Virus record (IMG/VR): IMGVR_UViG_3300044491_001200
Location: 1 to 63,916 of that record
Direction: 5' to 3' (one strand)
DNA: 63,916 nt
Origin: a virus
The notes under the pieces were generated by a model. It had not been told where the DNA came from. It saw only the letters and a list, made by a program, of their open reading frames with translations, and did no database searches. Positions 2,521 through 60,720 of the stretch are shown one piece after another (position 1 is the stretch's first letter; each line of letters opens with the position of its first letter). The translations under genes and the position numbers were made by a program.

Positions 2521-3582
2521 ATGTCAAGATTTTACGAACAAAACATAGATGTTATACTAGAAATGGATGCTCTCAACAAGCATATCAAAGATCTACGACA
2601 GTATTATGAACTTGAACACATTTTTGTTGTAAGTACTCCTGCCGCTAGAGAACGTGGTATACAATCTATATTAGAAACTGCTGGTTATACAGTTACTATG
2701 TGGGGCGAACAATACGGAGACCTAACAGAACCAACTAACGATCAAATACTAGAAGCATACAAAGAGTTTGCTCACAGTGATGCTGATTGTGTGTTTGCTA
2801 TCGGTGGAGGCAGTATTGTTGATTTAGGTAAAGGAATTATATTTAATAGTCTAGCAGGAACAAGACCGTTCTTTATAGCAGTACCTACAACTTACAGTGG
2901 TGCTGAAATAACCAAAGGCTTAATGATTGTTAGAGGTCCAGGTAATAAGAAACCAGTGTATGATGAGAAGTGTAGACCTGATGTACTAATATTAGATGGT
3001 ACACTAACAGATACTCTACCCGATAGAACGGGTCTTATAATCGCCGTAGACGCTCTTACACATTGTTTAGAGGGTGCGGCTAGTACAATTGAACACCCTA
3101 TTGCGGAAGGTGCCGGTTTGCATGGCATTAAACTTGCAATGGAACATTTACCCACAACTGAAGTTACTCCTGAACTCAGAGAAACATTTGCTAAAGTAGG
3201 CTTCTTAGGTAGTAAAGCAATGGATTGTGCATTAGGACATATCCATAATGTAAGTTTTAGTATTGGTCCTAGGACAGGATTAAAACATGGTGAACTAAAT
3301 TGTTTGTTTGCTCCTGCTATTATAGAAGCAAGTTTGCGTAAACGTAACGATGCATACAGACACATAGACACAGAAAAACTATTACAAATTTTTGAATTCT
3401 ACATTGATGATTGGGAACTATACCAAAGGTATTTGCCTAAGCATAGTGATCTATTTGTGGAAACAGCAATAGCAAATGCAAACTATAACAGTCATCCGGT
3501 GGAACTAGACGCAGATGACTTTAGATGGATTTTTGAAACAACATTACAGAGAGCAAAAGACTATGTCGAACAATATACTTGA
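2521..3582 (+). CDS. iron-type alcohol dehydrogenase family protein
   Basis: 353 residues. Shows the nucleotide-binding GGGSIVDLGKG (about residues 97-107) of the Fe-ADH/dehydroquinate-synthase superfamily, and the metal-ligand pattern D-x3-H in AVDALTHCLEG (about 180-190), followed by two histidines in GHIHNVSF and KHGELNC (about 240-262). The metal site therefore looks intact, so an active NAD(P)-dependent oxidoreductase is likely; the substrate is unknown. It follows a TATAAATA late promoter and overlaps the downstream methyltransferase-like gene by 20 nt. Very unusual cargo for a T4-like phage. Confidence 0.88.
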   Translation: MSRFYEQNIDVILEMDALNKHIKDLRQYYELEHIFVVSTPAARERGIQSILETAGYTVTMWGEQYGDLTEPTNDQILEAYKEFAHSDADCVFAIGGGSIVDLGKGIIFNSLAGTRPFFIAVPTTYSGAEITKGLMIVRGPGNKKPVYDEKCRPDVLILDGTLTDTLPDRTGLIIAVDALTHCLEGAASTIEHPIAEGAGLHGIKLAMEHLPTTEVTPELRETFAKVGFLGSKAMDCALGHIHNVSFSIGPRTGLKHGELNCLFAPAIIEASLRKRNDAYRHIDTEKLLQIFEFYIDDWELYQRYLPKHSDLFVETAIANANYNSHPVELDADDFRWIFETTLQRAKDYVEQYT

Positions 3583-21879: not shown

Positions 21880-22974
21880 ATGGAAACTTTACAAGTAAGA
21901 CCGTCCGAGACAAAGCCAATTGTACTTCGTGCAATGAAGGCAAAACGTCCTATATTTTTATGGGGTTCACCGGGCATTGGTAAATCAGATCTTATTCAGC
22001 AGATTGTTGACTCAGGTGAGTTAGGTAACGCATACATGATTGATATGCGTCTTGCTCTTATGGAGCCAACTGATTTGCGAGGATATCCTTTTAGGAATCC
22101 AGAAACAAACACTATGGAGTGGGCACCAGCGGCAGACTTGCCAACTGAGCACCTTGCTTCACAATACGATACTATTGTATTGTTTATGGACGAACTTAAC
22201 TCAGCACCTCCTTCAGTACAGGCGGCGGCTTATCAGTTAGTTCTCAACAACAAAATTGGTCAGTATTCATTGCCTAGCAATGTAGTAATTGTTGCCGCAG
22301 GTAACAAAGAAACTGACAGAGGTGTTACATTCCGTATGCCTTCCCCCCTTGCAAACAGGTTCCGTCATATCAATATGGATGTGAACTTTGAAGATTGGAG
22401 CATTTGGGCAACGGATCACAAAGTACACCATGATGTAATTGGTTACTTGACTTATGCAAAGGCAGATTTGTTTGACTTTGATCCTAAGACAAGTTCACAG
22501 GCATTTGCTACTCCTCGTTCTTGGAGTTTTGTAAGTGAAATCCTTAACACTGAAGGCTTTGATACTGCTTCAGACTATGAGCAGAAGGCAGAGATTGCCG
22601 GTGCTATTGGTGAGGGTATGGCTATTAAGTTTTGTGAGCATAGGAAGTATGCTTCTAAACTACCAAACCCAGAAGATGTACTCAATGGTCAAGTAAAGAA
22701 ACTTGATATCAAAGAGAAGTCTGCTCAGTATTCATTTGCTATTGGACTATGCTATGAACTAGCAGAGTTGTATAACAAAGGTGATGAGAAACTTTTTGAT
22801 AAAGGTGTTGATATGTTCTTCGACTTTATCATGGCAAACTTTGAGCCTGAGTTAGTAATCTTTAGTGCTAAAACAGTACTAAGCGATCATGACATTGACA
22901 TCAAGCCTCGTAAACTACAAGGTAAGAAAGAGTTTAAAGATCGTTACTGGAAGTACTTATTCCCAGGGAAATAA
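21880..22974 (+). CDS. MoxR-type AAA+ ATPase
   Basis: 364 residues. Walker A GSPGIGKS (about 29-36), Walker B IVLFMDELNSAPPSVQAAAYQL (key residues DE at about 107-108), sensor 1 AAGNKETD (about 143-150) and the MoxR-like arginine-finger region SPLANRF. MoxR ATPases act with VWA-domain proteins to remodel or activate target complexes. A VWA/metallopeptidase-like partner is encoded at 24460 under the same type of promoter. A strong terminator follows. Confidence 0.9.
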   Translation: METLQVRPSETKPIVLRAMKAKRPIFLWGSPGIGKSDLIQQIVDSGELGNAYMIDMRLALMEPTDLRGYPFRNPETNTMEWAPAADLPTEHLASQYDTIVLFMDELNSAPPSVQAAAYQLVLNNKIGQYSLPSNVVIVAAGNKETDRGVTFRMPSPLANRFRHINMDVNFEDWSIWATDHKVHHDVIGYLTYAKADLFDFDPKTSSQAFATPRSWSFVSEILNTEGFDTASDYEQKAEIAGAIGEGMAIKFCEHRKYASKLPNPEDVLNGQVKKLDIKEKSAQYSFAIGLCYELAELYNKGDEKLFDKGVDMFFDFIMANFEPELVIFSAKTVLSDHDIDIKPRKLQGKKEFKDRYWKYLFPGK

Positions 22975-23872: not shown

Positions 23873-24400
23873 ATGCAAACATTAGTAATACACACCCAAT
23901 ACAGAGAGAACTATGCCGCTCACAATGATGATTATGAGCATGGTGTAAGTGAGGCTCACTGGAAGTTCAAGGGTGGTAGCACTTATTTTGTAACGGACTT
24001 AACTCCCGGGCAAATCAACAAGATTGCTCAAGACGGTATCCCTACCTTAACCAAATTGATTGAATACTCAAATGAGGCTTCAGAAGAATATATCCTGGAT
24101 TGGGAGATACGTGACCTTGGTAAAAATGGCGACGGCAAAGGTCCTATTTGCGAACCATGGGAAACTCCAATAGAGTTTTATTGGAAGATGGACCGTTGGT
24201 TATGTCGTACCCATCACACTCCCAATCCTGAATATAGCCATTGGAACCGTGCCATTATTGGCAAGGCAGAGCAATGGATTCCTTTAGAGGAGCAAGGTAG
24301 GTCAGACTACAAATGTCAGTACAAGACTGCCAATGGTTGGTTTGATATGCACTCTACTCAACTTAAAGCAGAAGTTGAAGAAGCCAATCAAGCCGCTTAA
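23873..24400 (+). CDS. conserved-type phage protein, unknown
   Basis: 175 residues, rich in Trp and His (IEFYWKMDRWLCRTHHTP, about 98-115). Opens with LVIHTQYRENYAAHN. Transcribed from a GGTTGACC-family promoter between the MoxR-like and VWA genes, so it may belong to the same functional set. No motif assigned. Confidence 0.75.
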   Translation: MQTLVIHTQYRENYAAHNDDYEHGVSEAHWKFKGGSTYFVTDLTPGQINKIAQDGIPTLTKLIEYSNEASEEYILDWEIRDLGKNGDGKGPICEPWETPIEFYWKMDRWLCRTHHTPNPEYSHWNRAIIGKAEQWIPLEEQGRSDYKCQYKTANGWFDMHSTQLKAEVEEANQAA

Positions 24401-24459: not shown

Positions 24460-25785
24460 ATGGACACATTAGAAGTAAAACAACCAAAGATTAGTAGCGA
24501 TCCTAAAGCCACATCTCATAAGGCGTTGGAAAGTATTCCACCTACAACTCTTAGCAAGAAAGAAATTGAAGATCGTTTAATTTCTGCTAGGATTTCCATG
24601 CTACTTAATTGTCCGTTCTATGGTAACTTGGCTTGTCGTCTTGAGATGAAAGACGCAACTGATTGGTGTCCAACTGCCGCAACTGATGGCAAATACTTTT
24701 ATTACAATAGAGACTTTGTGTCTGCATTGTCAATGGGTAACCTTGTATTCCTTTGGGGTCATGAGGTAGAGCATTGTGTATATGATCACTTTGGTAGACG
24801 AGGTGAGCGTGATCCTATGCTTTGGAACATTGCAAACGACTACATTGTAAACGGAGACCTTATTGAAGGTAACGTTGGTGAGAAAATTACACTTGTTGAA
24901 ATATGTCATGATTACAAGTATCGTGGTTATACTTCTGAGGAAGTATATGCAGAGTTATTCCAACAGGCTGAAGAAGAAGGCCGTGTAATAAATGTATCTA
25001 CACTTGATGTACACTTGGATATGGAAGACGGTGATGACGAGGGTGCTGGTACTAATGCTAATGCACAAGAAGGCAATGCAGAAAGTAAAGGCAAAGGTCC
25101 TGCAAAATATACTGCTGATGAAAAACGTGCTATCAAAGAACAATTTAAGAACGCAACTATCCAAGCGGCAAAGAGTGCCGGTGCTGGTAACTTGCCAAGT
25201 GGTGTTAAACGACTTGTAAGTGATCTAGTAAATCCTCAACTTAGTTGGAGAGAACTATTACCACAACAAATTCAAAGTGTAATTAGAAGTGATTACAACT
25301 TTAATACTCCTTCACGTAAAGGTATTGGTGAGGGTATTTGGATGCCAGGCTTAGACCGTGAGCAAACAATTGATGTTGCTATTGGTATGGACACATCGGG
25401 TTCTATGACAGATGATATGAGCCGTGATATCCTTAGTGAAGTAAAAGGTGTTATGGATCAGTACACAGATTTTAAAATACACTTGTTCTGCTTTGACACT
25501 GAAGTACACAATCCACAAGAGTTTACTGCTAATAACATGGACGAGTTTATGGACTACGAAGTTATGGGCGGTGGTGGAACCGAGTTTGATGTATGTTGGG
25601 AATACATGAAAGAAAATGGTATCCAACCTAAAAAGTTTATTATGTTTACAGATGGTTATCCTTGGTCCAGTTGGGGCGACGAGTCATACTGTGACACATT
25701 GTTTATTGTACACGGCGGAGGGTATGGTGGTGAGAAACCAGTAGCACCTTTCGGCATAACCGTACCATATGAAAGAGAGAAGTAA
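24460..25785 (+). CDS. VWA-domain protein with metallopeptidase-like domain (DUF2201 type)
   Basis: 441 residues. N-terminal domain with HEVEH (about 104-108), a HExxH zinc-metallopeptidase signature, followed by NIANDYIVNG. An acidic/Gln-rich linker (about 185-225) precedes a C-terminal VWA-like domain with the MIDAS motif DTSGSM (about 311-316) and TDGYPW (about 394-399). This matches the DUF2201 metallopeptidase/VWA proteins that partner MoxR ATPases in bacteria; the MoxR-like gene is at 21880. Target unknown; a chaperone or protease role against a host complex is possible. Confidence 0.88.
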   Translation: MDTLEVKQPKISSDPKATSHKALESIPPTTLSKKEIEDRLISARISMLLNCPFYGNLACRLEMKDATDWCPTAATDGKYFYYNRDFVSALSMGNLVFLWGHEVEHCVYDHFGRRGERDPMLWNIANDYIVNGDLIEGNVGEKITLVEICHDYKYRGYTSEEVYAELFQQAEEEGRVINVSTLDVHLDMEDGDDEGAGTNANAQEGNAESKGKGPAKYTADEKRAIKEQFKNATIQAAKSAGAGNLPSGVKRLVSDLVNPQLSWRELLPQQIQSVIRSDYNFNTPSRKGIGEGIWMPGLDREQTIDVAIGMDTSGSMTDDMSRDILSEVKGVMDQYTDFKIHLFCFDTEVHNPQEFTANNMDEFMDYEVMGGGGTEFDVCWEYMKENGIQPKKFIMFTDGYPWSSWGDESYCDTLFIVHGGGYGGEKPVAPFGITVPYEREK

Positions 25786-25934
25786 TGCTAGAAATAATTG
25801 GTTTCATTGCATTGGCGTATTTATTTTTTAAATTTATGCCTACAATTTTAGAATACATATTTAAGTTTGCAGTTATCTGTATAGGCTTTGTTGCATTCTT
25901 AATTGTTTGCAATTGGATTTTATATCACATATGA
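25785..25934 (+). CDS. 49-residue membrane microprotein
   Basis: Start ATG overlaps the VWA gene stop by 1 nt and its stop overlaps the SDR start by 3 nt, so it is embedded in an operon. Nearly all hydrophobic, with two possible helices (about 2-19 and 25-46). Function unknown. Confidence 0.62.
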   Translation: MLEIIGFIALAYLFFKFMPTILEYIFKFAVICIGFVAFLIVCNWILYHI

Positions 25935-26725
25935 ACATAAATGAATTGTTTAGTGTAGAAGGAAAGGTTGCAGTTGTTACTGGTAGCTCTAAAGGCATTG
26001 GTAAAATGATTGCAACCGGTTTAGCAATGAATGGTGCTAAAGTATACATTACTGCTAGACATGGTTCAACTCTACAAAAAACACAGGCCGAACTGTTAGA
26101 AAAATACAACGCAGATGTTTATGTTATTTCTTGTGATTTAAGCACACAGGATGGCATTGACACTTTGTATAATGAAGTATGTGCTAGAGAAGATAGCATA
26201 GACATTCTAGTAAACAATGCCGGTGTGGCTGGTGGTGAGGACTTTGATTTGTTCTCTGAATCTAGTTGGGATAAGGTAATGGACCTTAATGTCAAAAGCA
26301 TGTTCTTTTTAACGCAAAAGTTTAAGAAATTACTTAAAACAAATGCAACATCAAGTGACCCATCTAGAGTTGTAAACATTGGATCAGTTGCTGGAATAGT
26401 AAACCCAGGAATCGATACATACGCATACAGCACATCTAAAGCCGCAGTACATCATTTAACAAGAAGTCTTGCAGGTAGACTTGTTAAAGAAAATATTTTG
26501 GTAAATGCTATTGCTCCAGGACCATACCCAAGTGACTTACTTGGACCAGCAATAGGCTTCAATTATAGCATGGTCGAAGAAGCCAACCCAAGAGGTAGGA
26601 TTGGTACACTAGAAGACATATCTGGTCTTGTAATATTTCTATGTTCGAGAGCAGGAGCATTCACAGTTGGTGAAACTATTACCTCTGACGGTGGTGTAAC
26701 TAAAACAACAGGACATTGGAAATGA
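25931..26725 (+). CDS. classical short-chain dehydrogenase/reductase (FabG-like)
   Basis: 264 residues from ATG 25931; an in-frame upstream start at 25907 is less likely because ATG 25931 overlaps the previous stop. Cofactor motif TGSSKGIG (about 15-22), NNAG (about 88-91), catalytic Ser in NIGSVAG (about 140-146) and YSTSK (Tyr and Lys about 160 and 164). NAD(P)-dependent carbonyl reductase fold. The gene lies in a row with an amidinotransferase-like gene. With the phage ACP at 7675 an acyl-ACP substrate is conceivable, but distance makes that speculative. Confidence 0.9.
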   Translation: MNINELFSVEGKVAVVTGSSKGIGKMIATGLAMNGAKVYITARHGSTLQKTQAELLEKYNADVYVISCDLSTQDGIDTLYNEVCAREDSIDILVNNAGVAGGEDFDLFSESSWDKVMDLNVKSMFFLTQKFKKLLKTNATSSDPSRVVNIGSVAGIVNPGIDTYAYSTSKAAVHHLTRSLAGRLVKENILVNAIAPGPYPSDLLGPAIGFNYSMVEEANPRGRIGTLEDISGLVIFLCSRAGAFTVGETITSDGGVTKTTGHWK

Positions 26726-27012
26726 TTAAAAAATTTAATAGACTTACTGAAGATGAATTTGTACTGCTGAAAGGCACAGACAAAATGGTCAATATGATTA
26801 GCAACAAATATTATACTGAGACACATGAACTAATCGAATGGTTAGATGATAATGCTATAGGTAATTTTTGTGTAGTAAAACATCTTAAAGGATGGATTCT
26901 ATATTTAGAGATGCTAGAAGATATGTTGAATGCTAGGCAACTTTGCGAACCAGTTTCGGAACCAGCACCTGCCATCCATTCGGTAAATATCGTTGATGAA
27001 ACCAAATACTAA
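26722..27012 (+). CDS. small protein between SDR and amidinotransferase, unknown
   Basis: 96 residues from ATG 26722, overlapping the SDR stop by 4 nt (ATGA). Helical N-terminal part and a Pro/Glu-rich tail. The position suggests a role with the flanking enzymes. No motif recognised. Confidence 0.65.
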   Translation: MIKKFNRLTEDEFVLLKGTDKMVNMISNKYYTETHELIEWLDDNAIGNFCVVKHLKGWILYLEMLEDMLNARQLCEPVSEPAPAIHSVNIVDETKY

Positions 27013-28063
27013 TCTATGGTCCTGTAATGAATGGGATCCCCTCAAAGAAGTAATAATAGGAACGGCCGTAGACGCCAACATTCCACATGGTGATCTCAGT
27101 CATCACGCAACAAACTATGCTAATCTAAGTGCTGAACAGTATGCACAAATGCCTAAGGGTAGATACCCAGAGCATGTATATACCGAAGCAGAAGAGGACT
27201 TAGACGCATTGTGTAACGTTCTAAGCAACGATTTCGGTGTAAAGGTACATAGGCCTAACCTGAATGCTGTGGACTTTACAGCGAACGTTAGCAACGGCTT
27301 ATGGGACACAGACCAATACGAAGCATACTGTCCACGTGATAGTGTTACTGTGATAGGTGACAAAATCATAGAAGGTGCTATGAGTTTGAGAGCAAGGTAT
27401 CATGAAACCTTTCTATTTCGAGACCTCTTTAAAGAGAAGATGATGGGTGGTGCTAATTGGTTACAGATGCCTAAGCCACGTTTACAAGATAACTTGTTTA
27501 AAATACAGCCAGGTAGAGACCCAAGTGTAAACAACAATGAACCTATACTAGACCCTGCTAACCTCATACGCATGGGTTATGATATACTGTACCTTATATC
27601 CAATACAGGCAATGAGATGGGTGCTAGGTGGTTACAGAACGCACTAGGACCCGACTTTAGAATACATACTATGCATGACTTATACAGTTGGGCACATGTC
27701 GACAGTACAATTATGCCACTGAGACCTGGACTGGTAATACTAAATGCCAGTAGGGTAGATGCTGATAAGGTTCCTGAGATATATAAAAATTGGGATAAGA
27801 TTTGGTACACAGAAGAGATGTGTGTAGGACAACCATGCTTGGAAGACTATGCTCCAGCAAGTAGTTGGATTGGCATGAACGTACTCAGCATAGATCCACA
27901 GCATGTACTTGTACCAGATGACGAAGTACATTTAATGAAAGCAATGGAACAGAATGGAATAACACCTGTACCTGTCCAAATGCGTCATATGAGAACACTA
28001 GCAGGTGGTCCACATTGTGTGAGCCAAGACTTAGTTAGAGAAGGTAAACTTGAACAGTACTAA
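26996..28063 (+). CDS. glycine-amidinotransferase-like enzyme
   Basis: 355 residues. The alignment pattern to L-arginine:glycine amidinotransferase and StrB-type enzymes is strong: IRMGYDILYLISNTGNEMG (catalytic Asp in GYDI), AHVDSTIMPLRPGLVI (catalytic His), SSWIGMNVLSID and GGPHCVSQDLVREG (catalytic Cys). All three catalytic residues are present, so transfer of an amidino group from arginine to an amine acceptor is plausible; the acceptor is unknown. The start overlaps the preceding gene by 17 nt. Confidence 0.9.
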   Translation: MKPNTNLWSCNEWDPLKEVIIGTAVDANIPHGDLSHHATNYANLSAEQYAQMPKGRYPEHVYTEAEEDLDALCNVLSNDFGVKVHRPNLNAVDFTANVSNGLWDTDQYEAYCPRDSVTVIGDKIIEGAMSLRARYHETFLFRDLFKEKMMGGANWLQMPKPRLQDNLFKIQPGRDPSVNNNEPILDPANLIRMGYDILYLISNTGNEMGARWLQNALGPDFRIHTMHDLYSWAHVDSTIMPLRPGLVILNASRVDADKVPEIYKNWDKIWYTEEMCVGQPCLEDYAPASSWIGMNVLSIDPQHVLVPDDEVHLMKAMEQNGITPVPVQMRHMRTLAGGPHCVSQDLVREGKLEQY

Positions 28064-28276: not shown

Positions 28277-29017
28277 ATGAGTAACGGATTTCTAGTAGTA
28301 GGTGACGTTCATAACGAAGTCACAATGATGCAACAGGCAGTAGATTTTGCTACGGCGGCAGACCTACGTTTGGTGTTTGTGGGCGACTTGGTAGACTATG
28401 GACCAGAGCCATTAGCAACTATTGAACTTGCAAACAAGTTAGCAGACACTACTGATACCGTTTTCATAGAAGGTAACCATGATAACAAAGTTGCTAGATT
28501 CTTAAAAGGTAACGACATAACTATATCACATGGTATGCACATTACTGTAAATTTACTTAAAGAAAACAAACAAGCAGGTGAGATGTTTAACAATGTCTAC
28601 AGCAAAATGGTTTCATTCTTTAAAGTAAACAATACTGTAATGGCACACGGTGGTGTACATGGTGACTTTTGGACTGGTGATACAGAAAGTAAAAATGTTA
28701 AGTCTACATTCTTGTATGGACAAGTAGATAGAGAAGCAGGGTTTATAGAACGCAATGGCATGAACTATCCTCACAGAGTATACGGATGGACTGATCTTAT
28801 TCCAAAAGACCACAGGGTTATAGTTGGACATGACCGAAGTCCGTTTGAGCCAATACCTCAATTTGATTCTAATATAAACAAAATTGTGTTTAGAACCAAT
28901 GAACTAGGTGGCGAAGTAGTGTTTACAGACACTGGTGCTGGTAAGGGTGGATTTGTATCAGGTGTTATTTTAGACCCTTTAGGAGCAGTACTTGACACCA
29001 CAACGTTCAAAAACTAG
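28277..29017 (+). CDS. calcineurin-like metallophosphatase (PrpE/PNKP-phosphatase type)
   Basis: 246 residues. Shows the full metallophosphoesterase motif series GDVHN (8-12), GDLVDYG (about 36-42), GNHD (about 66-69), HGMHIT and AHGGVHGD (about 117-124), then VYGWTDLIPKDHRVIVGHDR (key residues GHDR about 184-187). Related enzymes remove phosphates from dinucleoside tetraphosphates, proteins or RNA/DNA ends. It stands alone with its own leaderless early promoter. T4-like phages often carry a 3'-phosphatase for RNA repair; whether this does the same is open. Confidence 0.9.
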   Translation: MSNGFLVVGDVHNEVTMMQQAVDFATAADLRLVFVGDLVDYGPEPLATIELANKLADTTDTVFIEGNHDNKVARFLKGNDITISHGMHITVNLLKENKQAGEMFNNVYSKMVSFFKVNNTVMAHGGVHGDFWTGDTESKNVKSTFLYGQVDREAGFIERNGMNYPHRVYGWTDLIPKDHRVIVGHDRSPFEPIPQFDSNINKIVFRTNELGGEVVFTDTGAGKGGFVSGVILDPLGAVLDTTTFKN

Positions 29018-42269: not shown

Positions 42270-42428
42270 ATGAACGAATTAGCAGAAATTTTATGTAGAA
42301 TGTCGCAAGAGCAATTACACGAGTTCGCCAGAGCATGTATGGACAAAGGCATTGCTATACCATTAGAGTTTGCACTACACACAGAACAGTTAGATGCTGA
42401 CTTTGATTTTATTAAAGAGAGTGCATAA
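42270..42428 (+). CDS. 52-residue protein, unknown
   Basis: Begins 1 nt after gene 45, with AAGGAGATAGC upstream as ribosome binding site, and overlaps the dpdA start by 1 nt. Helical and acidic. No motif. Confidence 0.7.
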   Translation: MNELAEILCRMSQEQLHEFARACMDKGIAIPLEFALHTEQLDADFDFIKESA

Positions 42429-43990
42429 TGGATTTAGGTAAAAGACAGTTAGACTATGCTGTATATTTGCCAGCCATTAGTAGTTTCTATGTAAAGCAAT
42501 TAGATAAGATTCTAAACAAAGACCCTGCTAATAGTAGAACGCCTGCAGGATTTGAATATGGCAACGAAGGCTTAGACTTTTTAAAAGCAAAAGACACATA
42601 CTTCCATTATCCATATGGACTATACTCAGCCGGTCATGCTCACTTAGACATTGCTAAAAGTCACAAAGATGAGCCAATGATACAGGACAGAGATAGAAAC
42701 GAATGTAAAGTAATACTAGGAGACTCAGGTGGTTTCCAGATTGCTACAGGCGTAATGAAAATGGATTGGGACAACGCAAAAGATCCTAACGATCCTGCTC
42801 GTACAAAGATGTGTGAGAAAATATTACGTTGGTTAGAACACACAGCAGACTGGAGTATGACATTAGACATTCCGGCCTTTGCCGCAGTTGAGCCACTAAG
42901 CAGTAAAACAGGACTAACAGAATTTAAAGACACATTAGATATTAGTTTGCTTAACTTACATTACTTCACAAGCAATCGTGTACCTGGAGCAACTAAGTTC
43001 TTAAATGTATTAAGTGGTACTGACGAAGCAACAAGTAAAGAATGGTACGAAGCAGTTAAAAATTTTAGTGATAAAAACTTTGTTGCACAGGCTTATGGTG
43101 ATGAGAATAGAACACTAGAAGGATATGCATTCGCTGGTATCAACATGAAAGACATGAGTTGTGTACTAAACAGGATGCTAGACTTACGTGAAGATGGTTT
43201 ACTTGAAGGCAAGGATTGGATACACTTCCTTGGTACAGGTAAACTACAATGGGCATGTTTCTTAACAGCAATACAAAGACAGTTAAGAATACATGATAAC
43301 CCTAACATCACATTAAGTTTTGATGCCGCTAGTCCATTTGTGAATACAGCATACGGACAAACTTATGCACACAATTTCTTTGAGCCAGGCAAGTTTGGTT
43401 ACTTCATGGACAGAGCATTTGATCAACAAGAACTTGTTGGTAGTGATTTGCCTGCTCCGTTTGGACACAGTCCTGTAATGAGTAGACTTACAATGGGTGA
43501 CCTATGTACTATGGGTCCAGGTGCACAAGACAAGAATGGTAACTTCAAGTTTAGTGAAGGACAACCACTTACAGACAAGCATGGTGAGCCTAAACTAGAT
43601 GAACAAGGCAATCAACTATATGCAGAACGTGATAGCACTACATGGGACACACAAACATATCTTTACTATATGGGTCATAGTGTATTCAATCACATTGATG
43701 CAGTACAAGAAGCAAATAGACTTGCTGATGTAGAAGCATTTAGAGAAACATTAGATTATAAGAACTGGAGAAAGCCTACTAAGAAAAGCAGTAAGGCACA
43801 AGAAGTATCTCCATATGTTCCTGCTAATATTTTATACTTCCAAAAGTTTGCAGAGGATTTATTTGATCCTAGCAATCCAAATCCAAGAGGTATGATAGCA
43901 GACCATAGAGAGTTCTTAACACATATAGGTTTCGCTGGAGAAGATGATGGCGATAACGAAGAAGTAATGGATACATTTTTTGAGTTTTAA
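42428..43990 (+). CDS. dpdA: DpdA-like 7-deazaguanine DNA transglycosylase
   Basis: 520 residues. VILGDSGGFQIATG (about 96-109) is the tRNA-guanine-transglycosylase core signature with DSGGFQ; DWSMTLDIPAF (about 139-149) follows in the TIM barrel. Phage DpdA proteins replace guanine in DNA with a 7-deazaguanine base. FolE, QueE and a QueD-like protein in the same island support this over a tRNA-modifying TGT. The C-terminal VMDTFFEF closely matches the gp43 tail VMDNFFEF, so it may dock on the gp45 clamp. Confidence 0.88.
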   Translation: MDLGKRQLDYAVYLPAISSFYVKQLDKILNKDPANSRTPAGFEYGNEGLDFLKAKDTYFHYPYGLYSAGHAHLDIAKSHKDEPMIQDRDRNECKVILGDSGGFQIATGVMKMDWDNAKDPNDPARTKMCEKILRWLEHTADWSMTLDIPAFAAVEPLSSKTGLTEFKDTLDISLLNLHYFTSNRVPGATKFLNVLSGTDEATSKEWYEAVKNFSDKNFVAQAYGDENRTLEGYAFAGINMKDMSCVLNRMLDLREDGLLEGKDWIHFLGTGKLQWACFLTAIQRQLRIHDNPNITLSFDAASPFVNTAYGQTYAHNFFEPGKFGYFMDRAFDQQELVGSDLPAPFGHSPVMSRLTMGDLCTMGPGAQDKNGNFKFSEGQPLTDKHGEPKLDEQGNQLYAERDSTTWDTQTYLYYMGHSVFNHIDAVQEANRLADVEAFRETLDYKNWRKPTKKSSKAQEVSPYVPANILYFQKFAEDLFDPSNPNPRGMIADHREFLTHIGFAGEDDGDNEEVMDTFFEF

Positions 43991-45635: not shown

Positions 45636-46070
45636 ATGAGAAGTATTTGGGTAACATTTAGTAAAGAAGGTATACATAAGTATCCTGCGGCATTAGAAGA
45701 TCCTAATCTAGCAACTGGCGACGAGTATGACGTTAGTTTCCTAGGTTATCCTCATAGACACACATTCCACTTTAAAGTGTGGATTGAAGTGTTCCATGAT
45801 GACCGAGACATCGAATTCATACAGTTTAAAAGATGGTTGGAGAATCAGTATCGAGATGCTATTCTTCAACTTGATTTTAAGTCATGCGAAATGATAGCAG
45901 ATGACTTATACGAAGCGATCAACGATGAATATCCTGGTCGTTACATAAAGATTTCAGTAGCCGAAGATAATGAAAACGGTTGCGAAATGGAGTATCCAGT
46001 AGAAGACTTGGATGGTCCTGATTTTTCGGACACAGATGCAATAGCAGATGTATTCGACAGTTTAAAATAG
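45636..46070 (+). CDS. queD: QueD/6-pyruvoyl-tetrahydropterin-synthase-like T-fold protein
   Basis: 144 residues. YPHRHTFHFKVWIEV (about 34-48) matches the QueD zinc motif HGHSF-type strand, and CEMIADDLYEAI followed by IKISVAEDNENGCEMEY (about 88-117) matches the family's C-terminal helix, strand and catalytic Glu. The catalytic Cys that normally precedes the HxH by four residues is Leu here. In the queuosine pathway QueD turns dihydroneopterin triphosphate (FolE product) into the QueE substrate. Pathway neighbours are present; activity is uncertain. Confidence 0.75.
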   Translation: MRSIWVTFSKEGIHKYPAALEDPNLATGDEYDVSFLGYPHRHTFHFKVWIEVFHDDRDIEFIQFKRWLENQYRDAILQLDFKSCEMIADDLYEAINDEYPGRYIKISVAEDNENGCEMEYPVEDLDGPDFSDTDAIADVFDSLK

Positions 46071-49182: not shown

Positions 49183-49342
49183 GGAAAGACATAGAGAACT
49201 CGACAAGAAAGTTGCCGAGGACTACGAGCATTATCTAAATGATGATCAGTTAAATGCTGAAAAGTTAGAAAAACTCAAATTAAAGCATGAGATAGCAGAT
49301 TTAATAGAACAAATAAAAGATAAGGAACAAGACGAGAAATGA
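49139..49342 (+). CDS. DUF465/YdcH-like coiled-coil protein
   Basis: 67 residues: LKVLEERHRELDKKV, then a short gap and KLEKLKLKHEIADLIEQI, the two-helix hairpin typical of DUF465. Overlaps both neighbours, 4 nt with folE. Function of the family is unknown. Confidence 0.78.
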   Translation: MSTSKSLRNHLKVLEERHRELDKKVAEDYEHYLNDDQLNAEKLEKLKLKHEIADLIEQIKDKEQDEK

Positions 49343-50028
49343 GTACAAGTAATAAGATCAAGGATAGATTAGTTGCCGCTGGTAAAAGATTTTGGGCAGG
49401 AGATAATATCTCTGACTACATAGAAGAAGGTGAGAAGCAACAACTAATAGACGAACTTTCAATTAAGTTTGAAGATGTCTTGCAAGGTCTTGTTATTGAT
49501 ACTGAGAACGATCCTAACAGTAACGGCACAGGCAAACGTCTTGCTAAGATGTATATCAATGAACTAATGGCAGGTAGGTATGAATCTATACCAGTTGCAA
49601 CTGCTTTCCCTAATGACAGTGAAGATAGATATGAAGGCATGTTGGTTGTGCGTAGCGAACTAACAAGTATGTGTTCACACCATCATCAGATAGTTAGAGG
49701 TGTAGCATACATTGGTATTATTGCTAGTGACAAACTAATTGGCCTAAGCAAGTACACAAGGATTGCACAATGGTGTGCAATGAGAGGTACACTACAAGAA
49801 GAACTTGCTAACGATATAGTTAGAGAAATACAGAAAGCCACAGGTGCAGAGCATTTGGGTGTGTATGTACAAGCAACACACGGTTGCGTAGAGAATAGAG
49901 GTGTTAAGGCACATAGTAGTCTTACACAAACAACTGTATTAAAGGGTGCATTTAAAGATGACCCAGGTACAAAGAAAGAGTTTATGGATAACATAAAGTT
50001 ACAACAATCATATGCGGGTGACAAGTAA
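49339..50028 (+). CDS. folE: GTP cyclohydrolase I
   Basis: 229 residues. SELTSMCSHHHQIVRGVAYIG (zinc Cys/His at about 114-117), IGLSKYTRIAQWCAMR (about 136-151) and a third zinc Cys in ATHGCVENRGVKA (about 180-192). This is complete FolE architecture. It converts GTP to dihydroneopterin triphosphate, the first step to 7-deazaguanine. In an operon with queE two genes downstream. Confidence 0.96.
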   Translation: MSTSNKIKDRLVAAGKRFWAGDNISDYIEEGEKQQLIDELSIKFEDVLQGLVIDTENDPNSNGTGKRLAKMYINELMAGRYESIPVATAFPNDSEDRYEGMLVVRSELTSMCSHHHQIVRGVAYIGIIASDKLIGLSKYTRIAQWCAMRGTLQEELANDIVREIQKATGAEHLGVYVQATHGCVENRGVKAHSSLTQTTVLKGAFKDDPGTKKEFMDNIKLQQSYAGDK

Positions 50029-50556
50029 GTGATATTAAAAAGAAACAAAGCATGGGTATTACAAAAAGGATTAGTTCCTATTGATGCTGTATGCGATATG
50101 GTTGCAATGGGTAAGGATCTGCAAGATATCTTGCGTAGATTTTCTGTACTTAACAACAACGATATATTCGAATGTATAGAATTTTATGCACAAAATACTA
50201 TCGTTCCTGACCATGATCCAGAGTCTTTAATATCATTGGTAAATACTGATCCAGAAGAAATTATTATTGAGGTAACAAATATAAATCAAACTGTATACTT
50301 GAAGTTAGTTGAACTGGGTAAAAGATATCACCCTGAGCAACAAGACTTCCATGTGTGTATGAATTTAGGTTTAAAGGTTGTATGTTTACATAACGTACAA
50401 AAGATTGAAAGTAACGCAAGTGAAATGCAAGATAGGCTACATAAAGCAGTACATCAAGCAATTCATAGATCAGTCCCAGAAGTATATGAGGACTTAGATA
50501 GAACAAAAGAAGATCTCGATTACGACGACTTCATTAAAAGAGAAAAGAATATATGA
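50029..50556 (+). CDS. protein between folE and queE, unknown
   Basis: 175 residues from a GTG start exactly after the folE stop. Helical N-terminal part (1-60), mixed middle and a helical, acidic C-terminus. No motif. The tight placement within the pathway operon (4-nt overlap with queE) suggests a pathway or DNA-modification role. Confidence 0.68.
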   Translation: MILKRNKAWVLQKGLVPIDAVCDMVAMGKDLQDILRRFSVLNNNDIFECIEFYAQNTIVPDHDPESLISLVNTDPEEIIIEVTNINQTVYLKLVELGKRYHPEQQDFHVCMNLGLKVVCLHNVQKIESNASEMQDRLHKAVHQAIHRSVPEVYEDLDRTKEDLDYDDFIKREKNI

Positions 50557-51437
50557 AACTAAGGTATAGTGAAGCATTTTATTCAGTGCAAGGAGAAGGT
50601 AGGTTTGTTGGCGTACCAAGTATTTTCCTTAGAACTTTCGGATGTAATTTCGAATGTGCAGGTTTTGGTCAGCCCAAAGGCAACTTGATTCCTGTAACTG
50701 AAATGCCATATAATACCGATCCTTTAGCGGATAAAGAACATCCTAATGCTTATAAGAGAATTGAAGAACTTCCAGTCACTCCAGTAGGATGTGATTCTAG
50801 TGCTAGTTGGAGCAAGAAGTATAAACACTTACAGATGACTAAATCTGTTGATGAGGTGATTGATCACATCACTAGTTTACTTCCCAACAGCACATTCACC
50901 GGCCAACACGGTGAAGACATACACCTGGTGATCACAGGTGGTGAACCGCTACTAGGGTGGCAACGTGTTTGGCCGACTCTTTTAGACGAGTGTGTGAAAC
51001 GTGGGTTAAAGAATGTAACATTCGAAACTAACGGAACACAACTTGTTAAGAGCGATCTTATATCGTACTTTAACCTAACACAACCTAATCTACATGTAAC
51101 TTGGAGTACAAGTCCTAAGTTATCTATCAGTGGTGAGACTACTGAAGATGCATGTAAGCCAGACGCATTGGCTACTATGAACCATGTAGATAATAGTTTC
51201 TTATACACAAAGTTTGTTGTACGTGATGCAGAAGACTTTAATGAAGTTGATATGTTTGTACAAAATTATAAAGATAACGACATAGAACTTGACAGCATAT
51301 TCTGTATGCCCGAAGGTGCTACATTAGAACAACAATCACTAACAGAAAAAGAAGTTGCAGAAACTTGTTTGCAAACAGGATATAAGTTTAGTCCTAGATT
51401 GCATATTAGTTTGTTTGGTAACGCATGGGGTACATAA
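50553..51437 (+). CDS. queE: 7-carboxy-7-deazaguanine synthase, radical SAM
   Basis: 294 residues. N-terminal YSVQGEGRFVGVPSIFLRTFGCNFEC (substrate-binding GEG and Cys at about 30 and 34), then a long insertion before VGCDSSASW, which holds the third cluster Cys (about 78). VITGGEPLLGW (about 129-139) is the radical SAM GGE motif. The split cysteine cluster differs from the CX3CX2C of most QueE proteins but resembles other insertion-type QueE. It makes 7-carboxy-7-deazaguanine. Confidence 0.88.
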   Translation: MKLRYSEAFYSVQGEGRFVGVPSIFLRTFGCNFECAGFGQPKGNLIPVTEMPYNTDPLADKEHPNAYKRIEELPVTPVGCDSSASWSKKYKHLQMTKSVDEVIDHITSLLPNSTFTGQHGEDIHLVITGGEPLLGWQRVWPTLLDECVKRGLKNVTFETNGTQLVKSDLISYFNLTQPNLHVTWSTSPKLSISGETTEDACKPDALATMNHVDNSFLYTKFVVRDAEDFNEVDMFVQNYKDNDIELDSIFCMPEGATLEQQSLTEKEVAETCLQTGYKFSPRLHISLFGNAWGT

Positions 51438-57797: not shown

Positions 57798-58853
57798 ATG
57801 GCGTCAAGTATAAATCTCAATAGATTATTTCCTTTAACAAACAAACTGACTTTACCTGAAGTCTGTCATCCTAAATGGGTAAACTTAGGTGAGAATGGCA
57901 AGGTAGAAAGAACAGCGGACGGTTTTGTTGTTCAATGGATACCAACTGACAGTTACGAAAGATATCAAACACATGGCAACAAAGACTACGACGAAAGGTC
58001 TATGTACAAATTAAACAAACATTGTTTTAGAGCAGACAACTTTAAGTCAACAAGACATAGTAAGAAAAAGAAAATAATGTTTGCTGGTTGCAGTCATACA
58101 TTTGGTATTGGTGTAGATCAACACGAAACTTATGCTGATATTATATGCAAAGAATATGATGCTGTCAACTGGAATATAGGTGCAGGTGGTATTGGTAATG
58201 AAACAATAGTACTAAACATTACACAAATGATTGATAACGGTTACATACCAGATATATTATATGTGCAATGGAGTTACCTACACAGACAATTGATGCTAAC
58301 GGATAACGATATACATAGCACACTATCAACAAAAGCATTTGCTGGTAAGCCTGACGGTAGATATCATAGTCCGTATTTTGATTCTTATTGTGACTACATG
58401 AAAAACAAGATAAATAATGCAACATGGGATGACTCTGTAACATCTTTGAACAATCAACTTGACGAACTAGAAGATTATAGATTAGAGGATGATTTAAAAG
58501 AGTTATACCATTGGCATGGTAAAGATGATAGTAAAAGCGAATCTCTTAAAGCAGGAGAATACTTTGCAACATTTGGTTCTAAAGCATTACTAAATCAATA
58601 CTATCTATTAAGAGAGAACGTTATAAACTTATGTAAATTGCATAACATAGTTCTTAAAGAGATACATGCAGATATGCAGATAGTAGAGTTTTTAGCAGAA
58701 ACTGTTATACCTAACAAAGGTTATACAACTGGTGATGTGCCGGTAACATTAGACAGTTTAAGCACAGACTTTGGCAGAGATAATCTACACTATGGTAAAG
58801 AATCTAATAAAGCATGGGCAAAATATTTAATGGATTATACAAATGAAAAATAA
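57798..58853 (+). CDS. SGNH hydrolase-like protein
   Basis: 351 residues. Block I-like MFAGCSHTFGIGVD (about 94-107), block II-like NIGAGGIGNETIV (about 124-136) and VQWSYLHRQ (about 155-163); a C-terminal DNLHYGKESNKAWAKYL (about 328-344) supplies the DxxH-like site. Serine is preceded by Cys (GCSH instead of GDSH), as in some sugar O-acyl hydrolases. The gene after it is a radical SAM enzyme overlapping by 11 nt. Confidence 0.78.
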   Translation: MASSINLNRLFPLTNKLTLPEVCHPKWVNLGENGKVERTADGFVVQWIPTDSYERYQTHGNKDYDERSMYKLNKHCFRADNFKSTRHSKKKKIMFAGCSHTFGIGVDQHETYADIICKEYDAVNWNIGAGGIGNETIVLNITQMIDNGYIPDILYVQWSYLHRQLMLTDNDIHSTLSTKAFAGKPDGRYHSPYFDSYCDYMKNKINNATWDDSVTSLNNQLDELEDYRLEDDLKELYHWHGKDDSKSESLKAGEYFATFGSKALLNQYYLLRENVINLCKLHNIVLKEIHADMQIVEFLAETVIPNKGYTTGDVPVTLDSLSTDFGRDNLHYGKESNKAWAKYLMDYTNEK

Positions 58854-60720
58854 TGTATACCTATTTCAAGTACAATATGCTATTGAAATAAGCGATAAGA
58901 CAAACTATTATTTGCCTTATTCTATTGGGTGTATTGTTGCCTACGCAAAACAGTTTGAAGACATCAGAGATAATTGGGATTTTGGTGAACTATTTTTTAA
59001 ACGTGAAGATCCTATAGAGGTTGTTAAACGATTAGACAATCCTAAAGTATGTGCATTCAGTAGTTATGTGTGGAATGAAGTAATAAGCCAAGAGATTGCA
59101 AAAGAAGTTAGAAAACAATACCCAGACTGTATTATTGTTTGGGGTGGTCCGCAAGTAGGACCTGAGGATTATGATCTAGACTGGTGCGATATTGTTATCA
59201 AAGCAGAAGGTGAACGCAACTTTGTAAACATTCTCAGAGATATAGATGCTGGCAAAGAGTTGCCACAAACATATACCAGTGATAGAATAGATAAACTAGA
59301 CGAGTGTCCTAGTCCTTATTTGGAAGGTGTGTTTGATGATATCATTGCTTCACACCCAGAAGCCGTATTTGCAATGACCTTAGAAACAAACAGAGGATGT
59401 CCATTCCAATGTACATTTTGTGATTGGGGTAGTTTAACCTATGCTAAAATTAAAAAGTTTGATCTAGATAAAGTTGTAGGTGAATTAGACTGGGCAACAC
59501 AAAATCCAATTGGTTACCTTTGGGTAGCAGATGCTAACTTTGGTGTGTTTAAAGCCAGAGATATTGCTATTGCTAACTTAATAAAGTATGCATGTGATCA
59601 TCCTGACAGTGGCATAGATGCTGTAAACATTCAATACTATAAGAACAGCACAGAAATATCATTTGAAATAGCAAGGATACTAGGCAAATATAACAGAGGT
59701 ATGACGTTAAGTGTGCAAAGTATGACAGAAGAAGTATTAGTTGCTATTAAACGTGACAACTTAGAAATAAACGACTTAACAAAACTACTTAAACAGGCTA
59801 GAGAATATAATGTGTTAGCATACAGTGAAGTTATATTACCTTTACCAGAAGAATCATTAGACAGTTTTAAAACAAGCATAACACAATTATTAGAGTGTGG
59901 TCAACATAATGCTATTGAAATGTGGATGGGACAACTACTTAAGAACAGTGAACTAGGTTCCAAAGAGCATATAGAAAAATATGGCATAGGTTGGGTAGAA
60001 GCATACGATTATAATTATTATCATAACCCATTAGATTGGAATGAAAAACGTGAGAAAATAAACCTCATAAACAAAACAAACACCATGTCTACACCTGAAG
60101 TAACAAAAGCATACATGTATGGCTGGATGATATTACAGTTGCACACACAGGGTTATACGCAACTTGTAAGCAGGTATTTAAGAGGTGTACACAATATACC
60201 ATATAGACAATTCTACGATAGACTGTATGAACTATTACAAATAGATGATAAATTAAAAGTTATATTTAACTTTGTTGAACAGTTTGAAAAAGCATACATC
60301 ACTACAGGTGAGTTACCAGATCCAAAAGATATAGATCCAACTATCGAAGTGCCTAAACTAGGCGGACATTTTACAGCACAAATGAGTATGGACATGATAT
60401 ACAAAAATAGACAAAGTATATATGCTCTAGCAGAACAAATTGTAAACGAATTAGGTTTTACTAACGAGAGCATAATCAAAATGAATAGAGACCATTTGTA
60501 TGAAGATAACAAAGAGTATCAATCAACTTATCATAGTGATTACGATATAGAAGAATGGACTCCCGGACAATTTGAGTATGAATTAGAGCCATGTATTTCT
60601 AAAAAATGGGTTACACAATCTATTGTGTCTGCTAAAGTCAACTCTGCAAATAAACAGATCGAAGCAATACAACAAAGACGCAGAGGTCTAAAAAATTACT
60701 ATAAAAAACTTGACAACTGA
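58843..60720 (+). CDS. B12-binding-domain radical SAM protein
   Basis: 625 residues. N-terminal Rossmann-like cobalamin-binding region: VCAFSSYVWNE, CIIVWGGPQVGPEDY (about 95-109) and DIVIKAEGERNF, lacking the DxHxxG histidine as in many class B enzymes. Radical SAM core with CPFQCTFCDWG (CX3CX2C, about 185-195). C-terminal helical domain (about 400-625). Typical of methylases or cyclases that use cobalamin and SAM. Overlaps the SGNH gene, so they may act together on a glycan or fibre component. Confidence 0.9.
   Translation: MKNNVYLFQVQYAIEISDKTNYYLPYSIGCIVAYAKQFEDIRDNWDFGELFFKREDPIEVVKRLDNPKVCAFSSYVWNEVISQEIAKEVRKQYPDCIIVWGGPQVGPEDYDLDWCDIVIKAEGERNFVNILRDIDAGKELPQTYTSDRIDKLDECPSPYLEGVFDDIIASHPEAVFAMTLETNRGCPFQCTFCDWGSLTYAKIKKFDLDKVVGELDWATQNPIGYLWVADANFGVFKARDIAIANLIKYACDHPDSGIDAVNIQYYKNSTEISFEIARILGKYNRGMTLSVQSMTEEVLVAIKRDNLEINDLTKLLKQAREYNVLAYSEVILPLPEESLDSFKTSITQLLECGQHNAIEMWMGQLLKNSELGSKEHIEKYGIGWVEAYDYNYYHNPLDWNEKREKINLINKTNTMSTPEVTKAYMYGWMILQLHTQGYTQLVSRYLRGVHNIPYRQFYDRLYELLQIDDKLKVIFNFVEQFEKAYITTGELPDPKDIDPTIEVPKLGGHFTAQMSMDMIYKNRQSIYALAEQIVNELGFTNESIIKMNRDHLYEDNKEYQSTYHSDYDIEEWTPGQFEYELEPCISKKWVTQSIVSAKVNSANKQIEAIQQRRRGLKNYYKKLDN

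Follow-up and report, generated by a model that had tools for sequence, protein, structure and literature searches.

A StrB1-like phage amidinotransferase that is probably exchanged as a single gene and may act on a sugar- or cyclitol-type amine

Genes at the locus

The window, i.e. the whole stretch of DNA analysed here (positions 1-63,916; 63,916 bases), is an entire IMG/VR virus record and probably a fragment of a larger genome. As contigs that carry the same clade of the gene discussed below measure 217 and 340 kb, and as the window's DNA polymerase has its nearest matches in Sinorhizobium phage Phosso, a Vibrio phage and Agrobacterium phage Atu_ph07, that genome is most likely one of a jumbo phage. 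The genes at the locus are encoded on the + strand:

21880..22974, +: AAA (MoxR-like) ATPase, core neighbour (Pfam AAA; phrog_1297, E 7e-95)
24460..25785, +: VWA/DUF2201 metallopeptidase-like protein, core neighbour (Pfam DUF2201_N 3e-38, DUF2201 3e-13)
25931..26725, +, ATG start: classical short-chain dehydrogenase/reductase (SDR; Pfam adh_short_C2, E 7e-50)
26722..27012, +, ATG start: 96-aa protein
26996..28063, +, ATG start: predicted L-arginine:amine amidinotransferase (AT), 355 aa, with an in-frame TTG upstream at 26993
28277..29017, +: calcineurin-like phosphoesterase, downstream of the AT slot (Pfam Metallophos 9e-10)

The VWA/DUF2201 gene is kept across the compared loci, and the phosphoesterase gene is also found at two sites that have no AT (L201 and L202, see below). 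PHROG 1314 and several GenBank records label the VWA/DUF2201 family 'HNH endonuclease' or 'homing endonuclease', which is probably a misannotation, given its Pfam matches to a DUF2201 metallopeptidase-like domain and VWA and its pairing with a MoxR-like ATPase. Elsewhere, the window encodes an iron-containing alcohol dehydrogenase family protein (2521-3582), conserved at 40-45% in three related contigs, and a radical SAM enzyme with a B12-binding domain (58843-60720), whose homologues in relatives adjoin an NAD synthetase-like gene.

The SDR, the 96-residue ORF and the AT overlap on the + strand, as the original prediction had stated and the ORF coordinates confirm: the 96-residue ORF overlaps the SDR stop by 4 nt and the AT overlaps the 96-residue ORF by 17 nt. 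These overlaps are what speaks for a dedicated operon in which the three genes serve one product; comparison of loci argues against such an operon, which we consider very improbable. Among the clade AT loci examined, the SDR lies beside the AT only in the window and in L001, and no viral relatives of it were found other than on the L001 contig; it is a lineage-specific, local and optional insertion. Its predicted FabG-like character was not borne out either: on the curated FabG equivalog models it scored 157.8 bits where TIGR01830 requires 297.75, and 153.0 where NF004198 requires 296. Homologues of the 96-aa protein follow the VWA gene also where the slot holds no AT (L201, L202, L204, L205, L207, L214 and L217), and the 16 family members that align come from phages both with and without AT. 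The family, for which neither Pfam (above cut-off) nor PHROGs yielded a match, is therefore part of the AAA-VWA neighbourhood. As its gene is a core gene that also occurs where AT is absent, the 96-aa protein was rejected as a partner of the AT or a peptide substrate for it. The AT, finally, recombines alone (see below).

Enzyme class and viral clade of the amidinotransferase

The AT matches StrB1 (PDB 1bwd) over its full length (phmmer, E = 1.9e-88), followed by HsvA, SxtG and AGAT; the match to 1jdw has an E-value of 1.5e-45, and the matches to 1bwd and 1jdw span residues 9/12-356. The catalytic Asp, His and Cys that the original prediction had named are indeed present, together with two further active-site Asp: all five residues tested (D115, D186, H234, D236 and C341) are kept, the first four being invariant in 122 out of 122 homologues and C341 in 121 (the one other row is gapped there). 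The AlphaFold model (pLDDT 86) finds its best structural match in 1bwd (Z 47.9, rmsd 1.7 over 344 residues), followed by SxtG, HsvA and AGAT at Z 41.7-42.2 (AGAT 41.7, HsvA 42.0), and predicts the pentein fold of the guanidino-forming AGAT/StrB1 family; SxtG and HsvA were kept out of the alignments and appear solely as database matches. The protein thus very probably belongs to the amidinotransferase class. Arginine-dependent guanidino synthesis by a phage enzyme, as originally proposed, stands at the level of enzyme class (homology, active site and fold), whereas its being wholly new does not, as phage amidinotransferases are on record.

The designation 'glycine-amidinotransferase-like' holds loosely at the family level and fails for the AGAT type. 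The flap, i.e. the five residues before the catalytic His, reads LYSWA in the AT, LYAST in StrB1 and KDPNP in AGAT (the latter as read from a Met302-deletion mutant), and the lid loop counts 20 residues in both the AT and StrB1 against 33 in AGAT. The AGAT lid consists of the 300-flap and helix 9, and the flap has been reported to be important for substrate use (PMC4887976); neither the AGAT-type D-P-N-P-M flap nor the long lid loop with helix 9 is present in the AT. The LY-type flap, the 20-residue loop and the ranking by sequence and fold thus argue for a StrB1-like architecture. The specificity of the AT cannot be read off StrB1, because its clade has a long stem (1.26 changes per column) and joins the other viral ATs with weak support (89/50).

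That clade emerged from a profile scan in which 123 viral contigs with AT relatives were detected, the best 80 of which were kept. In a tree of 95 proteins, the window's clade (clade A) forms a monophyletic group (100/100) of viral proteins only, and it is separate from the viral clades B and C and from the bacterial enzymes; it branches outside the Streptomyces/Amycolatopsis StrB1 group, with weak deep support and the long stem mentioned. The contigs that carry clade A come from marine jumbo phages and reach 340 kb. A recent host origin is not indicated, as even the closest bacterial proteins found share only about 45% identity with the AT. Many bacterial StrB1-like ATs, mostly of marine Luminiphilus/Halieaceae (L031-L075), adjoin a large AMP-binding/PP-binding (NRPS-like) gene, and these pairs perhaps represent an undescribed guanidino natural product.

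Comparison of the window AT with its relatives gave a dN/dS of about 0.06-0.13, and hence neither chance nor decay accounts for the gene; it is real, full-length and under purifying selection. That the AT would be an inactive remnant or a host-derived passenger, a reading for which no point in favour was found, is extremely improbable: the ORF is intact, the catalytic residues are kept and dN/dS is near 0.1, which is not the inactive-enzyme or pseudogene pattern that the original prediction had allowed for, and the clade is virus-only, with 100/100 support and a long stem.

Exchange of the gene and its possible acceptor

The conserved gene order within the clade is AAA - VWA - small protein - (AT) - phosphoesterase. 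Two related phages (L201 and L202) show the same order minus the AT, which is also absent from the rest of their contigs, i.e. they represent empty sites, and in more distant phages the small protein is followed by the next core gene, again with a slot that is devoid of AT. The AT of the window is 94% identical to that of L004, with a dS of 0.42, whereas the AAA, VWA and phosphoesterase genes of the same pair have diverged to a dS of 1.8-2.1. The windowed identity to L004 jumps from 43% to 85% at about 27,000, where the AT starts, amounts to 81-98% over most of the AT and to 22-49% just outside, and drops from 81% via 59% to 22% between about 28,000 and 28,100, where the AT ends. In the case of L016 the relation is reversed, the flanks being the closer part (AAA 85% and VWA 78% identical) and the AT only 82% identical. 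The gap in dS between AT and flanks and the breakpoints at the gene ends (L004) imply that the AT moves alone between lineages, and we consider it highly probable that it is a stand-alone, exchangeable accessory cassette in a fixed slot. The further contents of the slot vary: the insert is a radical SAM enzyme directly upstream of the AT plus a 231-aa protein in L023 and L024, a methyltransferase in L092 and L093, and an unclassified protein of about 180 aa in L001 and L016, and some AT loci have no insert. No Pfam family above cut-off was matched by the 231-aa gene of L023 or by the P-loop-looking genes that follow the AT in L001 and in L016. A 175-aa gene at 23873-24400 is another mobile single gene, with 63-93% identity in relatives, in many of which its position differs, and neighbours that are only 37-55% identical.

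Clues regarding the acceptor come from the genome context of the viral ATs. Near the AT at 47 loci of clades B and C, a PLP aminotransferase is encoded in 34, a member of the NAD-dependent epimerase family in 28, a radical SAM protein in 25 and a UDP-sugar dehydrogenase in 18, and 13 of the 47 lack all of PLP aminotransferase, epimerase and UDP-sugar dehydrogenase. In three relatives of the window phage the AT is located elsewhere, within clusters in which sequence reading indicates 2OG oxygenases, SGNH hydrolases, epimerases and PLP aminotransferases (DegT-like or other); the AT of relative G030 has a PLP aminotransferase as its direct neighbour, accompanied by an epimerase and apparent 2OG oxygenases. 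Within clade A, two records carry a UDP-sugar dehydrogenase, a 2OG oxygenase, a class I/II-like PLP aminotransferase and several radical SAM genes together, away from the AT:

G002:C1:746-10464 (L150): sugar/PLP/radical SAM cluster
G006:C1:16183-25344 (L189-L190): sugar/PLP/radical SAM cluster

The PLP aminotransferase of these clusters is short and their radical SAM genes are of the twitch type, and the whole is reminiscent of the module of Campylobacter phage CP220. The sugar/PLP cluster is complete in only these two clade-A records, and the window contig, itself a fragment of 64 kb, lacks it. Unlike most other viral ATs, which have a DegT gene nearby, clade A (the 340 kb contig included) yielded no DegT aminotransferase over the curated cut-off, and no class III aminotransferase (PF00202) was found in it either.

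The guanidino-cyclitol of streptomycin is made in the order oxidation, amination and then guanidinylation. The gene sets described above match this order, and a sugar- or cyclitol-like acceptor is therefore preferred; by this analogy, the chances that the AT acts on an amine of that type are about even. Against it count the 13 loci that lack all three marker families, the twelve loci with a methylase-like gene nearby (see below) and the rarity of the complete cluster within clade A. To the explanation as a whole, namely a StrB1-like phage AT that is exchanged as a cassette and acts on a sugar- or cyclitol-type acceptor, we assign a probability of roughly 50%. According to this scheme, and by the chemistry established for relatives of the AT, Cys341 would take the amidino group from arginine, assisted by His234 and Asp186, upon which ornithine would be released. 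The amidino group would then be passed to the acceptor amine, entering under the short, open lid, and this amine would stem either from the host or from the phage's dehydrogenase, oxygenase, PLP-aminotransferase and radical-SAM genes, which would lie at another locus. The outcome would be a guanidino group on a glycan or a sugar-derived product.

The acceptor could instead be a small free metabolite (glycine, lysine or a polyamine), so that guanidinoacetate, homoarginine or a guanidino-polyamine would alter cell metabolism or the charge balance of DNA packing. The best-studied members of the family do act on such molecules (AGAT on glycine, AmtA on lysine, HsvA on polyamines), a single-gene cassette would need host metabolites only, and guanidinoacetate methyltransferase has been reported to be enriched in Arctic marine viruses (PMC11360552). 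We nevertheless judge this rather unlikely, with the flap and lid loop being StrB1-like and not AGAT-like. For the polyamine product that the original prediction had listed we obtained no support, as neither ornithine/arginine decarboxylase (PF02784) nor AdoMet decarboxylase (PF02675) was found in the 14 clade contigs, most of which are fragments, so that a gene's absence carries little weight except in the largest of them. It is also conceivable that the by-product is what matters, i.e. that the AT starves or rewires the host's arginine metabolism by turning arginine into ornithine, arginine being the usual donor in the family and ornithine the co-product. A deiminase or an arginase would suffice for that, with no acceptor needed; both this and the strong constraint on the active site, conserved like that of a transferase, make this reading decidedly improbable.

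DNA, another of the products originally suggested, has to be weighed against a set of genes in the window that are related to base modification:

42428-43990: DpdA/TGT-like protein, 520 aa (TGT-like motifs GDSGGFQ, TADWSMTLD, KFLNVL and SFDAASP)
45636-46070: QueD-like protein (weak match, E 0.07)
49339-50028: GTP cyclohydrolase I (FolE; Pfam 4e-37)
50553-51437: QueE-like radical SAM enzyme (PHROG 8e-54)

The FolE, QueE-like and weak QueD-like genes likely serve 7-deazaguanine synthesis. The DpdA-like protein had no match in Pfam, PHROGs or the PDB (single and profile sequence searches) and its low-confidence AlphaFold model (pLDDT 54) gave no support, so it is assigned by its motifs alone; it is 49% identical to 'hypothetical' proteins of the Pseudomonas jumbo phages PA5oct, Paride and relatives, and this identity to a motif-bearing protein suggests that the PA5oct/Paride group may carry an unannotated DNA base-exchange enzyme. 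PA5oct and Paride, both cultured, yielded no AT match. Together with twelve other viral AT loci, these genes favour the idea that the AT amidinates an amine on a modified base, e.g. 7-aminomethyl-7-deazaguanine, to yield a guanidino base. The twelve loci, all of clade B (L097, L103, L104, L107 and L112-L119), encode a methyltransferase-like protein of about 360-406 aa near the AT, in some cases directly adjoining, with a weak N6_N4_Mtase match (E 9e-6), and in that subgroup a link to DNA modification is possible. A DpdA-like gene accompanies the AT in 11 of the 14 clade contigs, the window included. Among 21 relatives, however, it is present in 17 and an AT anywhere in only 4, and both empty-site phages (L201 and L202) have the DpdA-like gene and no AT. 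DpdA-like genes thus equally occur without AT; their presence is no pointer to the AT as a DNA enzyme, the pair was discarded as specific evidence for one system, and the predicted DNA product is left without specific support. In addition, QueF, required for the aminomethyl base, was not found, and QueC was rejected as a partner, the weak PF06508 matches being interpreted as an NAD synthetase-like protein, encoded next to a radical SAM gene of the B12 type. DNA hypermodification by the AT is accordingly improbable. A broader proposal, in which the AT guanidinylates a macromolecule made by the phage (a sugar of a virion or host surface glycan, or a DNA base) and its exchange is driven by host defences or receptors, is tentative and on the whole unlikely; we know of no positively charged guanidino modification of such macromolecules in viruses.

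The StrB1-like form would add untapped amidinotransferases, possibly for sugar- or cyclitol-type acceptors, and the identity of the acceptor would reveal what a virus gains from guanidino chemistry. The proteins form an old clade, virus-only and strongly constrained, and yet their gene is swapped gene-exact between lineages, a pattern that would be expected of host- or defence-facing genes.

Comparison with known systems

Phage amidinotransferases as such were already known. Campylobacter phages CP220/CPt10 were described in 2010 as encoding a putative glycine amidinotransferase, with five radical SAM genes alongside (PMC2853527), and Synechococcus phage S-SCSM2R has an annotated amidinotransferase ('inosamine amidinotransferase'). 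New are the present clade, its gene-exact exchange and the empty sites: no earlier description of a virus-only StrB1-like clade in marine jumbo phages, of such exchange or of such sites was found in the open-access papers searched.

The closest characterized enzyme is StrB1, the L-arginine:inosamine-phosphate amidinotransferase of streptomycin biosynthesis (1bwd), which the phage AT resembles over its full length (42% identity over the structural alignment) and which is its best PDB match by both sequence and fold, with a 20-residue lid loop, an LY-type flap and the active-site residues in common. The phage AT differs in that it belongs to a separate virus-only clade, to which the LYSWA flap and the LDPAN and GPHC motifs are peculiar, and in that no streptidine-type pathway accompanies it. 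Human AGAT (L-arginine:glycine amidinotransferase) shares the fold and the catalytic residues with the phage AT, which nevertheless is without the AGAT-type flap, has a lid loop that is 13 residues shorter and matches AGAT with a Z-score 6 units below that for StrB1. The polyamine amidinotransferase HsvA (PDB 5wpi), which is outside the flap comparison, is of the same family (Z 42.0) but farther from the phage AT than StrB1 by sequence and fold.

As for the phage-borne enzymes, that of CP220/CPt10 likewise lies in an exchangeable region, where it adjoins radical SAM genes (PMC2853527). It is only about 21-30% identical to the window AT, on a very long branch, and is part of a multi-gene radical SAM module, whereas the window AT occupies a single-gene slot. 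The AT of S-SCSM2R comes from a marine phage too, has the StrB1-like short form and is 36.7% identical to that of the window; the difference is that it is clustered with a DegT aminotransferase, a radical SAM enzyme, 2OG oxygenases and glycosyltransferases.
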